This document shows, one piece after another, positions 15,901 through 50,000 of a stretch of 64,000 bases of DNA. Both the position numbers and the translations under genes were made by a program. The stretch is taken from positions 731,173-795,172 of the forward strand of contig JAQGDQ010000007.1 in assembly GCA_030141605.1 (NCBI GenBank), given 5' to 3'. This stretch comes from Tubiluchus corallicola (taxonomy: Eukaryota; Priapulida; Priapulimorpha; Priapulimorphida; Tubiluchidae). The first letter of the stretch is position 1; each line of letters starts with the position of its first letter. The notes under the pieces were generated by a model. The model was not told the DNA's origin. It worked only from the letters and a program-made list of their open reading frames with translations, and ran no database searches.

Positions 15901-18900
15901 GACCGCGGTCATACGCATCACCTCTTTACCTAAACAATCAAACATTATGGAAACTGCAGATACTAAGAAAGAAAACGAAAATGTAGACACAGGATTTTAG
16001 ACATACTATCTTTAGCTGTGTTTCAAAACTTTGAACAAATCCGTTTTGAATATCAATTTTCAATTTTTCAAATTGCATTGATCATTAAGTTAAAAAACAG
16101 AATTACAGTAAACAACATATATAATTGAATTCTTAGTTATCTTGAGCAGATCTCGTGGAACGGGTCTTTCCCCATTCATTTTTCCCATTGATAAACAATG
16201 TATAACTGAAATTAGTAACTCGAATTTTTGCGTAACTTGAACCGAATTACCGGTACATTTCTTAAGAATCTGACTGAAATTACCTTGCCTATCTCGAACA
16301 GCTTCAAAAGCGAGAAATCCTACTTGAAATTGTGCACCAAATTATGATTTTAACTGCTAGTTTCAGCAAAAATGCTAAGATTTCTTATACAGCACTGGGC
16401 ACAACATGGCTTAGCGAAGATAGTTTAATGTAGATCACAATATTATTACTGCCGAATTCTATTAACCATGCTACTCAGACTATAATAGAGGTGAACAGTC
16501 ATTTTATTTTTCATTATCCATAAAAACTATTGTTTGATATTTGATTAAAGGATCAGTTTCTCATTTTCACAGGCTGTAGTGTATGTCCGATGTCGAGGAG
16601 CAATTCAATCTTTTTTTCTTATGAACATCGTTTAACTGTACTTTCACATAACTCGAACAAATTTCCTAGTCCTGAGGTGTTCGAGTTAGGTAGGACGTAG
16701 TTTACGTAGTAGGCAAATGACAATAACTTCTCAACTGTCCAAATCAAGCATACTTTTACTAAAGCAGCTACTATCTAACAAACCATGAAGTCCGAGAAGA
16801 AGAAAACAAGGGACAACTTTTTTATTACCTGGATCTTCATTTTCATCCACTGTTCCTTCAAAATTTCCTTCAAACACTGGATCATTGTCGTTAATGTCTG
16901 TGAGCTTGATCTTCACATCAGCGTAACCATAGTTACCGCGTCCTTTGTCATCTGTAGCGAGGGTGAGCAGCGTGTATACTTCCTGGCCAGCTGGTGGGTC
17001 TCTGTTCAGTGGCTTGTTCACATAGATCTGTCCAGTTTTGGCATTGATCGTGAAGATGCTGCCAGCACCCTGACCGCGAAGGGAATAACGAATATCATCG
17101 GGCGGAGCTCGGTCTTTATCAGTGGCACTTACCTGAAAGAAGAGAATTACTGATAAAGCTTAAAATTGTGTACCCTTTGCTTATGTTTTAAAAAAATACA
17201 AGCTCATGAAATTCGTATAATGCAAGATTAATGTTGGTGCTTTTGTTAATGCTTTATTTGTTTATTATTCTCACTCAACTATGTTACTGTAAACAAAAGT
17301 AAAGTTTGTTTATTTTTGTTTATCTTATTTAGTTTTCTATATCACCTTGAATGATATCTGCAGTACAAACAAGTTAAACTGACAAGTTATATGTTACTCC
17401 TGGCAGTTATACATGTATGTGTTTCATACATTACAACAATCTGCTTCAACTAAAATCAGTCAGTTCTCAAATATCTTTAAATTTTGCAAAATTTAAAGAA
17501 ATTCTCTTGCAGAAACATTATAGATAATCTCCATCATGATCATTTGTTTAGTTAGTGGTTAAGCAACACTAAGCATAGTTAGTAACCTCAAAAATCCTCA
17601 GAAAGGCCCTACAGATTCATTCATTAGACTCACATCTAGTATCCGCTTCGGCAGCTCATCAAGTGGCTGCTCCTCTGCGATGCTTGCTTCGTAATTAGAT
17701 GTTAGAAAGATAGGCCGGTTGTCATTGACGTCTCGCACGTAGATGCGCACCATGGTGTCATTCTCATTCTTGCCATCAGACGCAACAAGTGTCAGGTTGT
17801 AGACCTGGAATAAACAGTCCTAGAGGCTTACGGTCAGTCAACTCGCGAGCCAGCTAGTCTTGTTAGAAGCAAATAAATGCAAAGGCAGAAAAGAAAAAGT
17901 ATTCAATGTCATATGCAAGTCAGTAAATACCATACAGGGACAAAGTGGTGTTAGACATACTTATGACAAAACAGTTAATTATTGTAAATTAATTTCATAG
18001 CAGCACTTTCGATGCCAAAAAGTGTTAGTAAAAGTGCCTAGGACGGTGGTGGTGCCAGAAAACATAGGTTTAATACAGAACAACAACTCAAACGATTATT
18101 AATAGAAGTGACAAACTGACATAAATTAACCAAATTCTTTTGGGTAAAGCCAGAACTTGATATAGTTAAGAAGCAAGGCATGTAACTGCATTTCAAAAGG
18201 GCAAAAGTGTAGCAGACGCAAGCAAAAAATGTGAAATTTATTGAGTTCGCACAAATTACTGAGAGTATTGCACAGAGACCAATCCCTACAGCTGTCAAGA
18301 TTCTGCAAAATGATTTTAAATGAGAGCAAAACCTCCCAAGAGTGAAGAAAAAGTTTGTATCATCAGCTAGTGAAGTAGAAAGATAAAAGATTTTTAATCC
18401 ATTTTGCACCTAAACAACAAATGTTCTCTTATCTTTAGAAGACAATCACGCAGACACATATAATAAAAGTAAAGATGATATGCCATCAGACAAAAAGCTT
18501 CTACGGCTGTTAACAAACCATTTATAAAGGTAAAGTATATATATATATATAGTATATATAAGGTATATAGTAAAGCACATAACATTTGATCCCTGAAATA
18601 CATCTTATAGAGTTTTTAATCCTAAAAATCCACCTCAGACAGGAACTAGTTTTAAAACAGTATCACGATAGCCTGAAATAAATCAGAATCAGTCTTTTTT
18701 AATTTTTAGACCTTATATTTTTGCGCAGGATCTCTAAGCTATAAAAAGACTGAGTATGAGATAGCAACAGCAGATATAGCAGAGGTAAAAGTGATAGAAA
18801 AAGCAGAGAGAAAGCGAAACTCGCAGCAGCAAAGAGTTGATTGAAAGCAAAAACAGTCTGAGGAGCAATTTTAGTACTAAAAATTTAGTTGATGTAAGCT

Positions 18901-39900: not shown

Positions 39901-42900
39901 TAACAAAAAAAAATGCTTTTGGTGCACTTAGCTGCATTCACATAGTAAACTGATGTATTTTTAATGTGCTTCATAAGCACAGTGCAAAAACCTTTATCAG
40001 GAGTTTAAACCACAACAATGATGTTAAACTTAGAGGGTATTGCTCGCGAAAAAGTATTAAAAAAATTAATAATAAAAAAACTGCAAAAAAGATAACCCAA
40101 TTTACTCATCAAGATATACTTCAAAAGTTGTGCCAAGTTTTTACTGCTGGAAAACCAAGTTAACACGCTTTAAACATGAATTTGCAAGGCATAAATCAAA
40201 TTAGCATAGCAGGATTACTGTGAAATTCTTGCCATGACAGCTTGCAAAATGAGGAGATGATATTGCATTCAAATGAGCTTGCATCCATTTCATACACTGC
40301 TGAACACAAATTATAAACGGTAATGGGATGAATAATTGAGGGAAGCTGAGGAGCACAGCGAGATTGAGTAACACGTACGAACGAAATGCAAAGAAATTCA
40401 AAAGCCTGCATCCCAAACTCAAAAATTTAAAGGCCTATATAATTCCAACAGACTCTGAAGTTTCTTTAACACATTATTATGATTATACAAGTAATTACAA
40501 AAAAGACTTATAAAGTAAATAACTTACCTTTTACTCACAAATTTCGCACAAGCGCATTGCCATAAAGATTGCCATTATTTGCAATTTTGTATCTTTGGTA
40601 TAAGTGAGTGTGAACGATGTGTGTAAAACAGAAAGCGCCTTTGGTTACCGATCTTTCTTTACCAATCTTTGGTAACCTTGTGATTGTATTTATCACGTCA
40701 TTCGTCTCGCGCAACTAAAAATGGCGGTTTTCCAAATTTAATACCGCTAACAACGAAGTAATAAAAACCAAAAGAAACAAGTTTTACAGTAAGTTCATAA
40801 TAAAAAAATGAATATTAGTAATGAAAGTGGGATTTTAAGTTGTAAAAGCTTATATTATAGTGAGAGTTAGTTTGACTTTAAATAATAGATTTTTAATGAT
40901 TTATGAAATATGGATTTACAAAAAAAAAGTCTGAAACTGGAAAACGAAAAACGAAATTTGTTAAAAAAATCCAAGAATGGAAACCTTTTATATAACACCA
41001 AAAAAGGAAAAGGTGCTACAAAAACCCAAAAGACTAAAAGGCTGTTAAATGCCAAAAATGAAAAGTTAACATGAAAAATTCCAGAAATGAAAGGTTATTA
41101 TAAAAACATCTACATTTTATAAGAAGAATAAGCTCCTGTAAAACTGTAAAATGAAAAGCATATATACAAAAACTCCACACAAATGAGATGCTATTGTCAA
41201 AAACTTCTAAGAAAATAGCTATTAAGAAAAGCTTTTGAGGATAAAAGACTAATATCCAAAACTTACAGAGAGACGAGATACAGATTTTTTGCACAAAAAA
41301 TATTCAAAAATTAAAATGTTATAAAAAAACTTCAAAAAAAAAACTGTATAGAAAAAAATGTTATAAGAAAAAAAACTACAAAGAAAATGGATATTACAAA
41401 AAACATTAATTAGAATTAATGAGTCAACAGAGAAAAATCAAATAAGACATGACATTCTCAATACAAAATTACGTACTACCATACAGAATACCAAATACCT
41501 GCTAAAAATTAATTTTTTTTACATTTTGCATTCCGAAACATTAATAAATTTAAATGTGAACAGAATAGCAATGACGGTTTGATATTCATTGTTAGAAAAG
41601 AAAGTTTAACTTACCAGCGTGCTAGCAGATAGACCTCCTTCCTCCTCTGCATGGACCTGCAGTCGGTACGTCTTTGGTTGGTTAAAGTCGTCAAAGTCCA
41701 GCTTCTTCAACAGCATCACCTCTCCAGTCAGCGGCTTCCGAATAGAGAACGCGTCCGAAGTGTGACCGCTCTCGGTCGTCACCTTGTACTTGATAGGTTT
41801 GCCAGAAAATGACTTGGCCTTGACCTTGGTGACACTGCAACGACACAAAGGTCACATGTGCACAGGAGATATTCTAGCAATGGTGGCTTGTTGGAACACA
41901 ATGTTCAAGAACTGAACAAAAATTGGGAAGAAAACAACAGGAAACAAAAAAGATCACTGCGGGAGTTTTTTCATCATGTTGCATAATACGAGTGTCTGCA
42001 GGCATGTGGTGTTATTATCACCACAGGCTCTTTTAGAAATTATCTAAACGTCAAAATGACAACAAAAAGAAACTACATCAATGAAAATGACTGGGGAAAA
42101 GCAACAATAAAAGAATGTAGGAAGTAAGAAAGCTGGATGGCCAGATTAGCATGCTCGCCATCAAAATAAGAAACTCAGATTTGCAAATGTAATTATGCAT
42201 GCAAACTGTTCTAATAATTTCAAATCGGTTCCGTTACCAACTCCTGAACAAGTCAATATTGTCGACACAAGCAGAAATTAATGCAATGCTTGCCATGCTG
42301 ATTTAATTCACTTTCAAACAACTCGGGGGATAATTAAAGATTATTTCAAATTTCACATTTCTTTATTTCCAAACTTCAGTGATTGCAAAACGGCGATACT
42401 GAAAAATATGCCACCACGTCAGTGAAAATATCACCAGTTTTCACAATTGAAAATGCTTTGTTTATTCACAGTAATAAATTGAACGTGTTTTAAGATGCTC
42501 AACCATGTTTCAAGTATGCTTCAAAGTGCAAATTAAACTTGCAAAATTACTGCTTATATCGACTAGTAAGCACTTAACCAATTCAGCACAGAAAATACCA
42601 CCATCAAAATCACAGTTAGCACAAAGAAGGCAAGGGCTATTAAGTAAAACACTCACACAAGGAATCAATATATAGCATATATACATAAAATACGCGATAT
42701 ACAGTGAACATATATCGCACGCTAAAGGCAGCAGCCTTTAAGCAGTAGATGCGTTTGTTTTCGAATAGTAAGCTGTCTTCCATTTCATGACCGGCCCACG
42801 TGTTTTGTCTGCGGATGCTAACACAAGGGGGCACCAGGGTAGCAACACCGCCTACACCGCATAAAACTTACCTCGAGGAAAGTTGCACGTTGTTGCTGAA

Positions 42901-45900
42901 AAACAATGACAGCAGTTAGTGGATGGGTGTGGGGGGAGGGGCGGTGTGGGCGGTGCCACACTAGACAAGCTTGCACGCGAGTCGGTCAGTAAAATGAAGA
43001 AGCTACTATTGCCACCAACAGTACCTGAACTGGTAGTCTGTCTCAATGGGAGATCTTTGCAAAAAATAGAAAGAGACGAAATTAAAATGATGATGCCAAA
43101 AACAGTTTGCCAGAACCAATACAGTCATGGTGGCACGTATGACTATACATGGTCGATTACCGGGTGCATTGTGGTCAGGCGGGAGAAAGGCTGTTGAACA
43201 AGCATCGCGGCAGAGCGAATCGACTCGAATTTTACATACACACATCTAAGTCTCAAGCTGCTCTCGCTTAGGAAATAATTTCTGATGGTAAACATGCTGT
43301 ACTTATTAGTAAAAAACTGTTAGTAGCAAACAATGCGGTGCAGCGTGCACCTCAAAGTTACGTTCCATTGCATACTCATACAGTACCTACCATGTAGTTT
43401 AAAAATAGTTAACAATAAAAATAACCACATTAAAACTTAGTAGTTGCAATTTCAGAAATATAATCTATCACATTGATACCACAATAGAAATACCACTTGG
43501 AAATCACAATAGAAGATAATGTCCTACATTTAGAATGCTATTATTTCAATATGAAAACTCGTGCATATTTTTAATTTAAATCTACTATTTTTACATAAGT
43601 TTTAATGTAAACTGTCTTTTCATATCTGTTTTAAAGATTAATTGTATTTAGTTTAACAAATGAAATTTTTTGCATGTATATAATTAATTTATTATCAACA
43701 TAAATACCTTTTTCTAGATAAAGCTACCACAAAATTACATTTCTTCTACCAAAAAAGGAGCTTTCAATTTTTACCTGAAATTCTAAACTTGCGAACAAAT
43801 AACAACAGAAAGTTAACGTTTACTATTTTAAATCAATTGTCAAAATGAGTCAAAATTGTAATGAACGTTTCAAGCAAATTTTGACTATATTCATATCATC
43901 TGAAACTACAGAATTTTCAATGACTGCAGAATTTTCAATGAATAAGTGACTAACAAACTTACAGTGACTGAGAAGGTGCATTTTCTGGAACAGTCTGGTA
44001 ATAATCGACCGAGTAAAACTGCGGAGGCCGATCACCGACTATAATTGAAAGGGTCTCCAGGTCGGACTTCTGTGGTACTCGATGACCATTTTTATCAAAT
44101 GCCACACCGTTTTTGTCAATGGCAACAACCCGCAACGCGTACTCCATCGGTATACGGAACTGTCCTGGACGACGTGTGCGGACATTTCCATTGTATTCAT
44201 CCACTTCAAACGCATCTTCGCTACCTTTATATAAAGAACATACATGATACAATGAACCCATGAAACTGATTTAATTACAGTGGATGGATTCTGAGAGATT
44301 AACACGCCTTGAACCACTTGAGAACAGGTTGTCCCACTCACTTAGATTAATGAGTTTATTTGATTATCTACAAAACTGCAGCAATATAACAAACAACACT
44401 TTATGCAACTAGAAAGAATGGCTAAAATACGAACTAGATGTACCATATATAGGATTGGCTAAGATGGCATTTTTAACAAGAGTTATTGGCAGTGAAAGAA
44501 TCCATGTACATAAACATGGTAATCTGTTGCCGTAGCATCATAACAAACGAATTTATAGCTTTTTGTCGGAATTATAACACGATAATTCAGAAAAATTATA
44601 TAAGAAGGGCATAGGTAAATTGTTATTCAAGCAAATGTGAATTATAGCTCATTTTTGTGTTCAGTCTAGCAACAAAATTTTCTATAGACCAGACCAGACA
44701 CTAGAAATTGGTGTTTATGTAAAAAACTAGTTATCATAATTTAGATAGGGCAGATATGTAATGACCTCTGTTTGCTGAACAATAGTTATTGAAGTGTAGC
44801 TACGCTGTTCGTATCATTTTGAACAAGTTAGCTGAATTGTTCATGGTGTATAAGTGTCACACAAAAACGGAAATTAGGTACTTTAAAGGTCCTAGGAGAG
44901 TGAGTTAATATAATACAAGTAATTTTCATTTTATTTCTCAAAAATAAAACAGGCCACATTATTATGGTATAAAAAGAAAACTTGAACTATCACCCACAGT
45001 CCCTCTCTCTCTTTCTCTCTCACTCTCAAAACAGAATTTTAACATTTCAGCCTTGTAAACAATTAAGCTTGCACTCAAAAAACTTAGGTCAGCCCCAGAG
45101 ATACAGGGTTTGATTAAGTTTTGTTAGGTTGGGAAAAATGTATCAATCTCATCATGAATGTCTGTATTGCCTAGCATTGCATTGCCTTTTAACTTGTGAT
45201 CTTAATGATCATAATGATTTATTAGCTAACCGTAATGATTTTATATATTGTGACTATCATGTTTACTGCTAACTTTTCATACCTCAATACCGCTAAGATT
45301 GTTAACATTTAAAACATATTGCCACAAATATACGGCTACCAAACATGGAGATTAGATGAGAAAATTAACACTCTTGCTCTTTTCATGCAATACAGAAGTC
45401 AGAAAACTGTGACAAAATTACCAAATCTCCTTTACAGAACACACACACACATATATATATACATATATTACGTTTATAGCTGATATGTTGCCTCCTCACA
45501 AACAGTTCCAGAAGCGATTTATTAAGCTTTATTTTTAGTGCTTAAATAACAGTAATCACAATATTTTATTTATTTTGTTCAGCAAGCTCAGTATTGTTTC
45601 ACTTCAATTATGGGATACGATTTAGTGACAATCTCTAACCAATATGGAATTGACAGTTCTTGTCACGAGTTTATATCAAAAGTGCTGCATCTCATTACTG
45701 GTAAAATGCTTAATATCAATGACAATTAGCTGGCAGTTGTTACATTTATAAAAGAAATTTCATGAAGTACAGAAACCAAGTATTTTTATTTCTTTAGAAA
45801 GTCTCAACTATAGGAAATTTTAAATTATTGACCACTTGTTGAGACCAAAATGCTAACATAATTGAAGGCTATGGTTTATTATTATTTTACTTTACTTTTA

Positions 45901-47051: not shown

Positions 47052-50000
47052 TAGGTACGTAAGTATTTTATATATCGCCTATATACAATATATTCAATAC
47101 AAAAACCAAAGTTATTAGTTACAAAAAACAAAGCAAAATGACACGGCGATTAATAATTTAATACAGGGTTGGTTGGCGAAAAATTCTATGCGCTTGCAGA
47201 TTGGATAGATGTAACGTAACTGGTAGATAAAAACATCTGATGATGTCTGACGAACTATTAAAGAGAAAGTCTCACAGCCAATGGCATTCAGTTTAACTAA
47301 AAATACCACGGATATCATACAAAAATGTCAAGTACAGGGCAACACAAGAATAAGATCTGAAAAAAGAACCCCAATTCAAATTATTTCAATAACAAATAAG
47401 CTATTAAACTTCGGGTGCAAAAAAGGCTATTGGGTTATCAGCATTTGCCTGAAAACTGTCTTAAACGACTTTTTCAATTCTGTCGTCTTCGTGCCGTGTG
47501 TACATGATGTACAGAAAGAAAAACAGACAAAAGAGAAGCCCGCTCTAGACGTGAAACAGCTTTCCTCCACCCGCCACGCCAGAGCTAATCGATCAACAAG
47601 AGAAGACGTTGCCTCTACTCATGAGTCATCGCTTGGGAAGCCAGAGTAAAACCAGCAACAACAATAACCTTTCTGAGAATAGCCAATTACACTTCACAAA
47701 CATCGACGATTAGAAGAGCGTGGATCGATACCCATCAAAGGAAAATAAGAAACCATAACAAGAATTTGAAGGAGCGAGTAAACAACCAAGTATAATTAGG
47801 CGGCTGCCAAACGGCTATAATTCTAGATTTTTCGGATTCTACAGCCCTGGTATTTTCGCACGTTTTTGTGAAACGAGCAGGCGGGGTGCGAAGGTAATTC
47901 ACATGGGTCATAAAATGCCTGCAAAACATTTAAACACCAGATATTCCCAAAGGAATAAAAACCGCGAGGGAATCGTCCACAGACATCTGGCGACAACGAA
48001 AGAAAATTTTCAGGCGATAATTGCATTTTGTGAGCGACAGGTCTTAGCTCTATGAGTGATGCTGCCGCTGAGTCACGTACTTCTGAGTAAATAATGAACT
48101 TTAAAGGTGAAGAAACAGCATCAGACAGCATTTCTACTTCCTAGCAGCAGTACATATTATCAATAAGTAGTGTTTGTACACTAGAAACTATGAAGTCGGT
48201 CTAGAACCTCTAGGTGATCAAGACGCTAGAGGGTTAAAGAGCTTGAAGCAAGAGCTGAAAGAGGCTAGAAGACTAATTAAAGTCATGCGCATTGCACACA
48301 GTCATTTGTCCAATTTCACAATTTTTAAAAAGTATCTCCGGATATCCATTCCTAGCAGTTAATTTTTAAAAAGAATAACCTACTTAGGTGGATGAAATCC
48401 AAACATTCGTTCAAATCAGACGTTTCTGCTTGATCTATTTTCCCATCCTGAGTAGAAAGTTGGATCTGGTGTAACTAAATTTTAGTGGAACACTGAAGCG
48501 GAAGGTCAAAGGCCACATATAGTTTAAAAAAGGTGGCATCTAGACAAATGTAAAGTGATTTATTTAAAAACTAGGCACTTTTCACGAAGAAACGAGGACT
48601 TTCTAGAGGCTGGTTTAAGACTAACGAACGGCGAAAGATTGGGAATGAAGAGAGAGAAGGAAACATTGAACGTCAAGCTATTATTTCCAAACGTCGCAAG
48701 CCTAATTCCGGAAATAAGTCGTTTTAAATATACACTGCATTTACAGCTTAGACAGAATTATGAAAACTAGTAAGCTAATGGGGTACAAATCTGCCAAAGC
48801 ATACGAGTTTAAACATCGATTTTAAAGCAACGCCTAGAATAGTTTCGTAAAGTGCACAGAAAACCAGCAGCGAAAAATTCTGAAAAATAACATCTTCAAA
48901 CGAGCTAAGCATAACGACACTTACATATGATACTTTAATATAGAACCAATCATTGTCTATATCACAAACTTATGTAGCGTTTATGTAGCGTCCGGAATGC
49001 GGAGGTGGATAACGCATTCCGGATGCTACATAAGCGCAATTTTAACTTGTATTCATGGAATGTTGATGATTGGACAATGTGACGTATGTTTGTCTGTAGC
49101 TTTCATTTTCTTATAAGTGGGTAAAGATAGCTCCTAGTAAGGGGGTACTTAAAACAAATTGCAATAGAATTTTTCTCTTCAGATTCTGTTAGAACATGGT
49201 TTTAGGTGCCCTCAGCAAAGATCGGCCAAAATCGGCTTTGGTATTTTCGAGATATACGCATAAATCCAAGATGGCGCCCACTATAATCGCCTTATAATAG
49301 TATTGTGACGTCATCGTGACGTCACATTTGAAAAACGATCCTATTTTTGGAATCCCCGAGTGTCCTATCAGTCGATAATACATATTTTTCATCTCGGCTC
49401 GATGGTTTAGGAGATATAACTGATTTTTGGCCCTAGTATGCGCCATCTTGGCTTTATACATATATCTCAAAAATACCAAATCCGAGTTTGGCCGATTTAT
49501 TGTTGAGGGCACCTAAAACCACATTCTAACAGAATCTGAAAAGAAAAATTCTATTGCAATTTGTTCTCTATGTTCCTTGTTATCTTTACCCGCCTGTTAG
49601 TGGACTTTACTCTCTTTTGTTATCAGTGCCTCTCATCACTACAACAGATGTTTCATCAATGATTAGTAAAGTATCATGGCTTACTAACTTACATGGCTGA
49701 CTAAATAAACCCGTACGAAACACATATATCATAAAGACTGGATAAATTTTGAATAAATGATAATTTGGAGTAGTTTCAAAAATGTAGCTGGCTGAACTTA
49801 ATTGACAAATCACATAATAAAGCTGGTAAAGGAAATTAAAGAGTTCGTCAAAATGGAGTGAATTTTGTTGTAAGGTTAGGCCAAGCCTTATAATGCCACT
49901 GGCTTGACAAAAATCTTAAATACTGAATGTAGTTATCAAGGAGAAAAACCTCTCTCGAGTCTCGCATTCATCATTTCACAGAATAGAACCCCCGTATGAA

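Follow-up and report, generated by a model that had tools for sequence, protein, structure and literature searches.

A candidate 24-nt in-frame microexon within a predicted RNA hairpin of a CadN-like, probable type III cadherin gene in Tubiluchus corallicola

A 24-nt segment in a 2.1-kb intron of a classical cadherin gene is probably an in-frame cassette microexon, spliced and optional, which would be skipped by default and looped out in an RNA hairpin. The gene lies on the minus strand and occupies most of the window, by which is meant the whole stretch of 64,000 nucleotides of Tubiluchus corallicola DNA that was analysed. Skipping, which is probably the default, would give a standard mature EC3, and inclusion would make the EC3 A-B loop longer by eight mostly polar residues. 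In the predicted pre-mRNA hairpin, the exon would lie in the loop together with the branch region and its two splice sites, and a looped-out exon might be skipped preferentially until it is exposed, either by a trans-acting factor or through the time at which folding occurs. We infer that the 24 nt is spliced, that the hairpin would repress it and that its inclusion may affect adhesion. Four readings of the segment were weighed, and the likelihoods attached to them below are a matter of judgement and were not computed. The segment and its neighbours are as follows, in the order of transcription.

43963..44224, minus strand: upstream exon with the rest of EC2, a linker without DxNDN and strand A of EC3, aligned to 3UBH; its acceptor is uncertain
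42896..42919, minus strand: 3' splice site region of the microexon, with CTAAC at -24, TGC at -19, a T-rich stretch and CAG
42872..42895, minus strand: 24-nt candidate microexon, in phase 2 at both ends, adding NNVQLSSS, as judged from site scores and from both forms being open
42866..42871, minus strand: microexon donor GTAAGT, 11.77 bits
41615..41834, minus strand: downstream exon with EC3 from strand B onward, acceptor 7.19 and donor 10.8 bits, aligned to 3UBH

In the frames of the host gene we recognise a signal peptide and prodomain-like repeats, a basic RLRR site that appears furin-like in our reading, numerous cadherin repeats, an NC region, pieces of EGF and laminin-G type, a membrane span and the tail of a classical cadherin. 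Type III classical cadherins are characterized by EC repeats numbering above 14, by EGF-like domains and two laminin-G domains, and by a classical cytoplasmic tail; many EC repeats, EGF and laminin-G pieces, the membrane span and the tail were read directly from the frames here, in a model too incomplete to fix the EC count. This rough splice model has 34 exons, of which exon 2 is probably spurious, while some EGF, LamG and TM exons are missing from it and several acceptors are uncertain. Cadherin domains were confirmed by Pfam in the two N-terminal pieces submitted. The region around the microexon matched fly N-cadherin 3UBH at 2.5e-44, with a single stretch of 143.7 bits, and 3UBF at 4.9e-35, while the top match of the whole sequence was a CELSR1 chain (6.8e-48), reached through several repeats with a best stretch of 52.9 bits. 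EC2-EC4 are thus nearest to fly N-cadherin, including the linker without DxNDN, and the predicted protein is probably that of a CadN-like type III classical cadherin. Among type III cadherins, consecutive cysteines in EC7 have been described as common to arthropods and to annelids and molluscs, and a second pair, in EC14, as limited to arthropods (PMC5473995). The gene model holds one consecutive-cysteine pair and no second, so that in this respect the gene is probably of the annelid or mollusc kind, and a further CC stands in the signal peptide, outside the model. The exons around the microexon are present once in the genome; of 20 matches, the remaining 18 show no more than 41% identity, fall within long open frames and presumably belong to other cadherins. 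Viral and prokaryote contigs yielded no relatives.

At 24 nt, the segment is within the length of a microexon (27 nt or less), has canonical sites and keeps the frame whether it is skipped or included. The upstream intron reads CACTAACTGCTGTCATTGTTTTTCAG at its 3' boundary, directly before the segment at 42895-42872 (minus strand), and the acceptor, TTTTTCAG in short form, scores 9.21 bits, with no AG for 63 nt upstream. The segment itself reads CAACAACGTGCAACTTTCCTCGAG, a 24-mer with a single genomic occurrence, and is followed by the donor GTAAGTTTTA, where a score of at least 11.7 bits is found in 3 of 3308 intronic GTs, the microexon donor counted among them. The upstream exon closes at 43963 with TCA CT in phase 2, its donor scoring 6.39 bits, and the downstream exon opens at 41834 with T GTC ACC. 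The reading frame is open in both forms, and NNVQLSSS falls between ENAPSQSL and VTKVKA. The initial annotation had described 24 nt with a consensus acceptor, a GTAAGT donor and a symmetric phase 2, all of which proved correct on the minus strand, as did its insertion of NNVQLSSS at the start of a cadherin repeat, once both forms had been translated and found open.

The skipped form aligns to fly N-cadherin 3UBH with no gap over the exon junction, and the fly counterpart, PENQKKDSDIISIKAKSF, is equal to it in length. When a spacing ruler consisting of one regular expression was applied to the gene model, it gave 13 matches, eight of which measure 7 residues, the skipped form of the affected repeat included; the remaining five measure 5, 5, 8, 11 and 15 residues, some of these outliers being off-target matches and the value of 15 depending on an uncertain acceptor. 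The inserted form also measures 15 residues. The claim that skipping yields the standard repeat spacing therefore holds, both by the gap-free alignment and by the ruler. By cadherin topology, we take the insertion point to be the A-B loop, on the EC4-facing side of EC3, and not the calcium-free EC2-EC3 linker. The linker preceding the affected repeat carries no DxNDN motif. The repeat would be mature EC3 in fly numbering, because this linker resembles in that respect the fly EC2-EC3 linker, which has been described as calcium-free and kinked (PMC8325961); the label EC5, under which it was first annotated, was a numbering choice and is replaced here. That the insert tunes adhesion or cis contacts is a structural guess.

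Another repeat of the same gene shows tandem acceptors in the window at 15962-15929 (minus strand), namely 15953 (9.0 bits) and 15929 (3.4 bits), which are 24 nt apart, with a third at 15962 (7.8 bits). In our reading, the weaker acceptor at 15929 gives canonical spacing, and the stronger at 15953 adds eight residues in the A-B loop of that repeat.

The predicted hairpin that encloses the microexon was absent from the initial annotation. It would be formed by a GC-rich block whose GC is 0.54 over 200 bp against 0.34 in the surroundings, ranking third among 944 intronic 200-bp windows. Its parts are given below.

42783..42993, minus strand: GC-rich block with a predicted long imperfect hairpin, enclosing the microexon, its two splice sites and the branch region
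42974..42988, minus strand: outer helix, 5' arm, 15 positions, rank 10 of 94, with a score tied with the next
42941..42959, minus strand: inner helix, 5' arm, 19 positions, rank 4 of 94 in the sense-strand scan
42842..42860, minus strand: inner helix, 3' arm, 15 Watson-Crick, 3 G-U and 1 A.C
42788..42802, minus strand: outer helix, 3' arm, 12 Watson-Crick, 2 G-U and 1 A.C

The block (42783..42993) has a minimum free energy of -71.6 kcal/mol and a z of -3.24, and none of 200 shuffles was as stable; a shorter cut gave a z of -2.20, with 5 of 200 shuffles as stable. In a test that was post hoc, a z at or below this value was found in nine of 671 intronic windows and an energy at or below it in one, with no window combining the two; one of the nine low-z windows (49460-49250) is a dispersed element. 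The helix scan of the sense strand returned 94 helices, and those ranked 4 and 10 are nested around the microexon. Together, the two helices comprise 34 positions with 27 Watson-Crick pairs, 5 G-U and 2 A.C; selection on the RNA is not demonstrable from these, because the ratio of G-U to A.C is 5 to 2, is swapped on the other strand and involves too few pairs. The microexon hairpin is not among the entries of a repeat listing of the window made with a seed of 9, probably owing to that seed and to its interrupted arms. The strongest helix on the sense strand lies elsewhere in the window, at 38385-38248, with 51 positions around a 36-nt loop.

Whether such a pair of sites could be there by chance was judged on 31 exons chosen from the splice model and on 31 introns of 52,544 bases, in which AG..GT pairs of 6-51 nt were scored. 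The microexon has a site sum of 21.0 bits, which is equalled or exceeded in 2 of the 31 model exons, while its acceptor score is reached by six of them and its donor score by five. It is the best in-frame pair of the host-gene introns. When both sites are set at 7 bits or more, it is the sole in-frame pair on the sense strand, although the antisense strand also has one (48 nt, 18.2 bits); among in-frame pairs, it alone has CTAAY together with an AG-free zone of at least 40. An AG-free zone of 63 nt or more is found at 3.2% of 2700 intronic AGs, at 3 of 31 model acceptors and at 0 of 25 other strong intronic AGs, and so adds modestly, with an approximately threefold gain. The branch-like CTAAC that the initial annotation had pointed out is indeed present at -24, but CTAAY does not tell model acceptors from decoy AGs: it stands upstream of 2 of the 31 acceptors and of about 5% of the decoys, while TGC stands upstream of 9 of 31 against 39% of 251 strong decoys, the 31 acceptors being here a slightly different set (34 rows minus exons 1, 2 and 28). 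Both motifs, the branch-like CTAAC and UGC, were thus dropped as evidence, since they do not separate acceptors from decoys in the host gene.

The segment would, in the reading that competes most directly with a cassette exon, be a chance AG..GT pair of the 2.1-kb intron that is rarely if ever spliced in, and this we regard as possible but rather unlikely. An equally strong pair of 37 nt does occur in the 31 introns of the gene, at 20073-20037 (minus strand, 21.7 bits, out of frame); it has an 8-nt AG-free zone and no CTAAY, and may be a decoy or a frame-breaking exon. The antisense strand of the introns holds no equally strong pair under generic weights and one, out of frame, under weights taken from the gene. 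Order-4 Markov introns gave 0.03 in-frame pairs per gene under generic weights (60 runs) and 0.29 under gene weights (150 runs). Among 337,318 other genomic bases, from 17 of 20 fetched stretches and read on both strands, no equally strong pair was found in any frame under generic weights, and three were found under gene weights, two of them in frame, or 0.31 per 52.5 kb. Comparable in-frame pairs are therefore expected by chance at about 0.03-0.3 per gene, and a decoy is not dismissible on strength alone, the more so as the branch and UGC motifs are uninformative. Against it stand the rank of the 24 nt among in-frame pairs, its being the sole one with CTAAY (itself weak evidence) and a long AG-free zone, and its position at the centre of an unusual predicted hairpin. 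A sense-strand excess of in-frame pairs, which would have indicated further microexons, was not seen at 14 bits under generic weights (8 sense against 4 antisense); when each site had to reach 5 bits, there were 18 sense pairs, the 24-nt segment and a 30-nt candidate counted, and 10 antisense. This 30-nt in-frame block, at 43054-43025 (minus strand) in the same intron, has a sum of 11.7 bits, which is at chance level, and was rejected; its sites are weak, it has an 86-nt AG-free zone and it reads SPIETDYQF.

The same strength of both sites, which exceeds that of the upstream exon's donor, would also suit a constitutive or nearly constitutive microexon in a lineage with a longer EC3 A-B loop. 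We consider this improbable, as the canonical repeat is the skipped form and looping out has been reported to reduce inclusion (PMC8052449). The palindromic nature of the block and its high GC might instead suggest an exonised foldback insertion, i.e., an old palindromic element of which the exon is a by-product, and this appears the least probable of the four. A search of the 343.5-Mb genome with 42770-43010 returned only the self-match at E<=10, with very common words skipped by the search, while the same search with a control hairpin at 49240-49480, itself a dispersed foldback (MITE-like) element, returned at least 74 match rows (40 of 106 candidates scored). Since the control gives that many rows, a comparable family of the microexon block would have shown, and a dispersed-repeat or MITE-like origin of the block was rejected on this comparison, which is strong evidence but not absolute. 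Two contigs of the assembly, C2264 and C1787, are 1,053,078 and 1,053,064 in length and carry a repeat copy at matching coordinates; they are probably two haplotypes of one region. A cassette microexon, as first annotated, is judged the most likely reading; the anatomy, phase and frame are right, and skipping restores the canonical repeat.

Type III cadherins have been described as the ancestral bilaterian classical cadherins. If a hairpin-gated microexon is truly present in one of them, it would offer a simple and testable example of how splicing can readjust a single loop in a long adhesion protein; should the segment never be spliced, it would show how readily strong in-frame decoys arise, one being expected per few to thirty genes of such size. 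A structure-gated loop switch can be proposed for this ancestral-type cadherin, although in its entirety it is speculative and rather doubtful: the single-copy hairpin would keep the microexon skipped, its opening in some cells would lengthen, at the EC3-EC4 end, the A-B loop of EC3 and thereby change the rigidity or the contacts of the ectodomain by the conserved kink, and the tandem acceptors 15953/15929 may let the corresponding loop of a second repeat vary as well, likewise by 24 nt. Among the open-licence papers listed, with those on cadherins and microexons judged by title, no type III cadherin microexon outside arthropods was found.

Neuronal microexons regulated by the eMIC (Srrm2/3/4) are described as preceded by UGC and CUAAY motifs and by a long zone free of AG, and those dependent on the eMIC in the fly as having weak splice sites (PMC8797185). 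The candidate exon resembles them in its size, its long AG-free zone and the UGC and CUAAY before its acceptor, but differs from the fly targets in that its sites are strong and its motifs are at background in the host gene. A search for the eMIC family (PF15230) was silent, and so were its controls. On account of the shared features, the exon might be linked to the neuronal eMIC programme. Lower inclusion has been reported for human exons that conserved complementary pairs loop out, and such pairs are reported to be depleted around exons (Kalmykova et al. 2021, PMC8052449). The candidate exon likewise lies between predicted complementary arms of its intron, although the human pairs are conserved and the candidate hairpin is known from one genome. 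By analogy with the lower inclusion of the human exons, the 24 nt would probably be looped out and skipped by default, with relief in some cells.

The nearest precedent is found in insect N-cadherin, in which a 12-nt microexon, 7a', is tied to the mutually exclusive exon 7a, and the ME-7 exons bear DRE and DxNDNxPxF (Hsu et al. 2009, PMC2655722). Like 7a', the segment would be a very short in-frame exon in a CadN-type cadherin ectodomain; unlike 7a', which is elsewhere in the gene, it has 24 nt, and neither exon at its junction has DxNDNxPxF. In the masked window, neither the TM piece nor any one of the 34 model exons had a duplicate at E<=0.05, and positional identity with the arthropod ME-7/7a' was rejected because the flanking exons carry no such motif and no duplicated exon is present in the window at that threshold. 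Insect microexon 7a' is thus a precedent and not a homologue of the 24-nt exon, because the mutually exclusive exon to which it is coupled carries DxNDNxPxF, a motif absent at the junction. The closest structural parallel is Drosophila N-cadherin EC1-EC4 (3UBH), which shares the calcium-motif-free linker before the repeat and aligns gap-free over the junction; unlike the included form of the candidate repeat, it was crystallised with an A-B loop that carries no insert.
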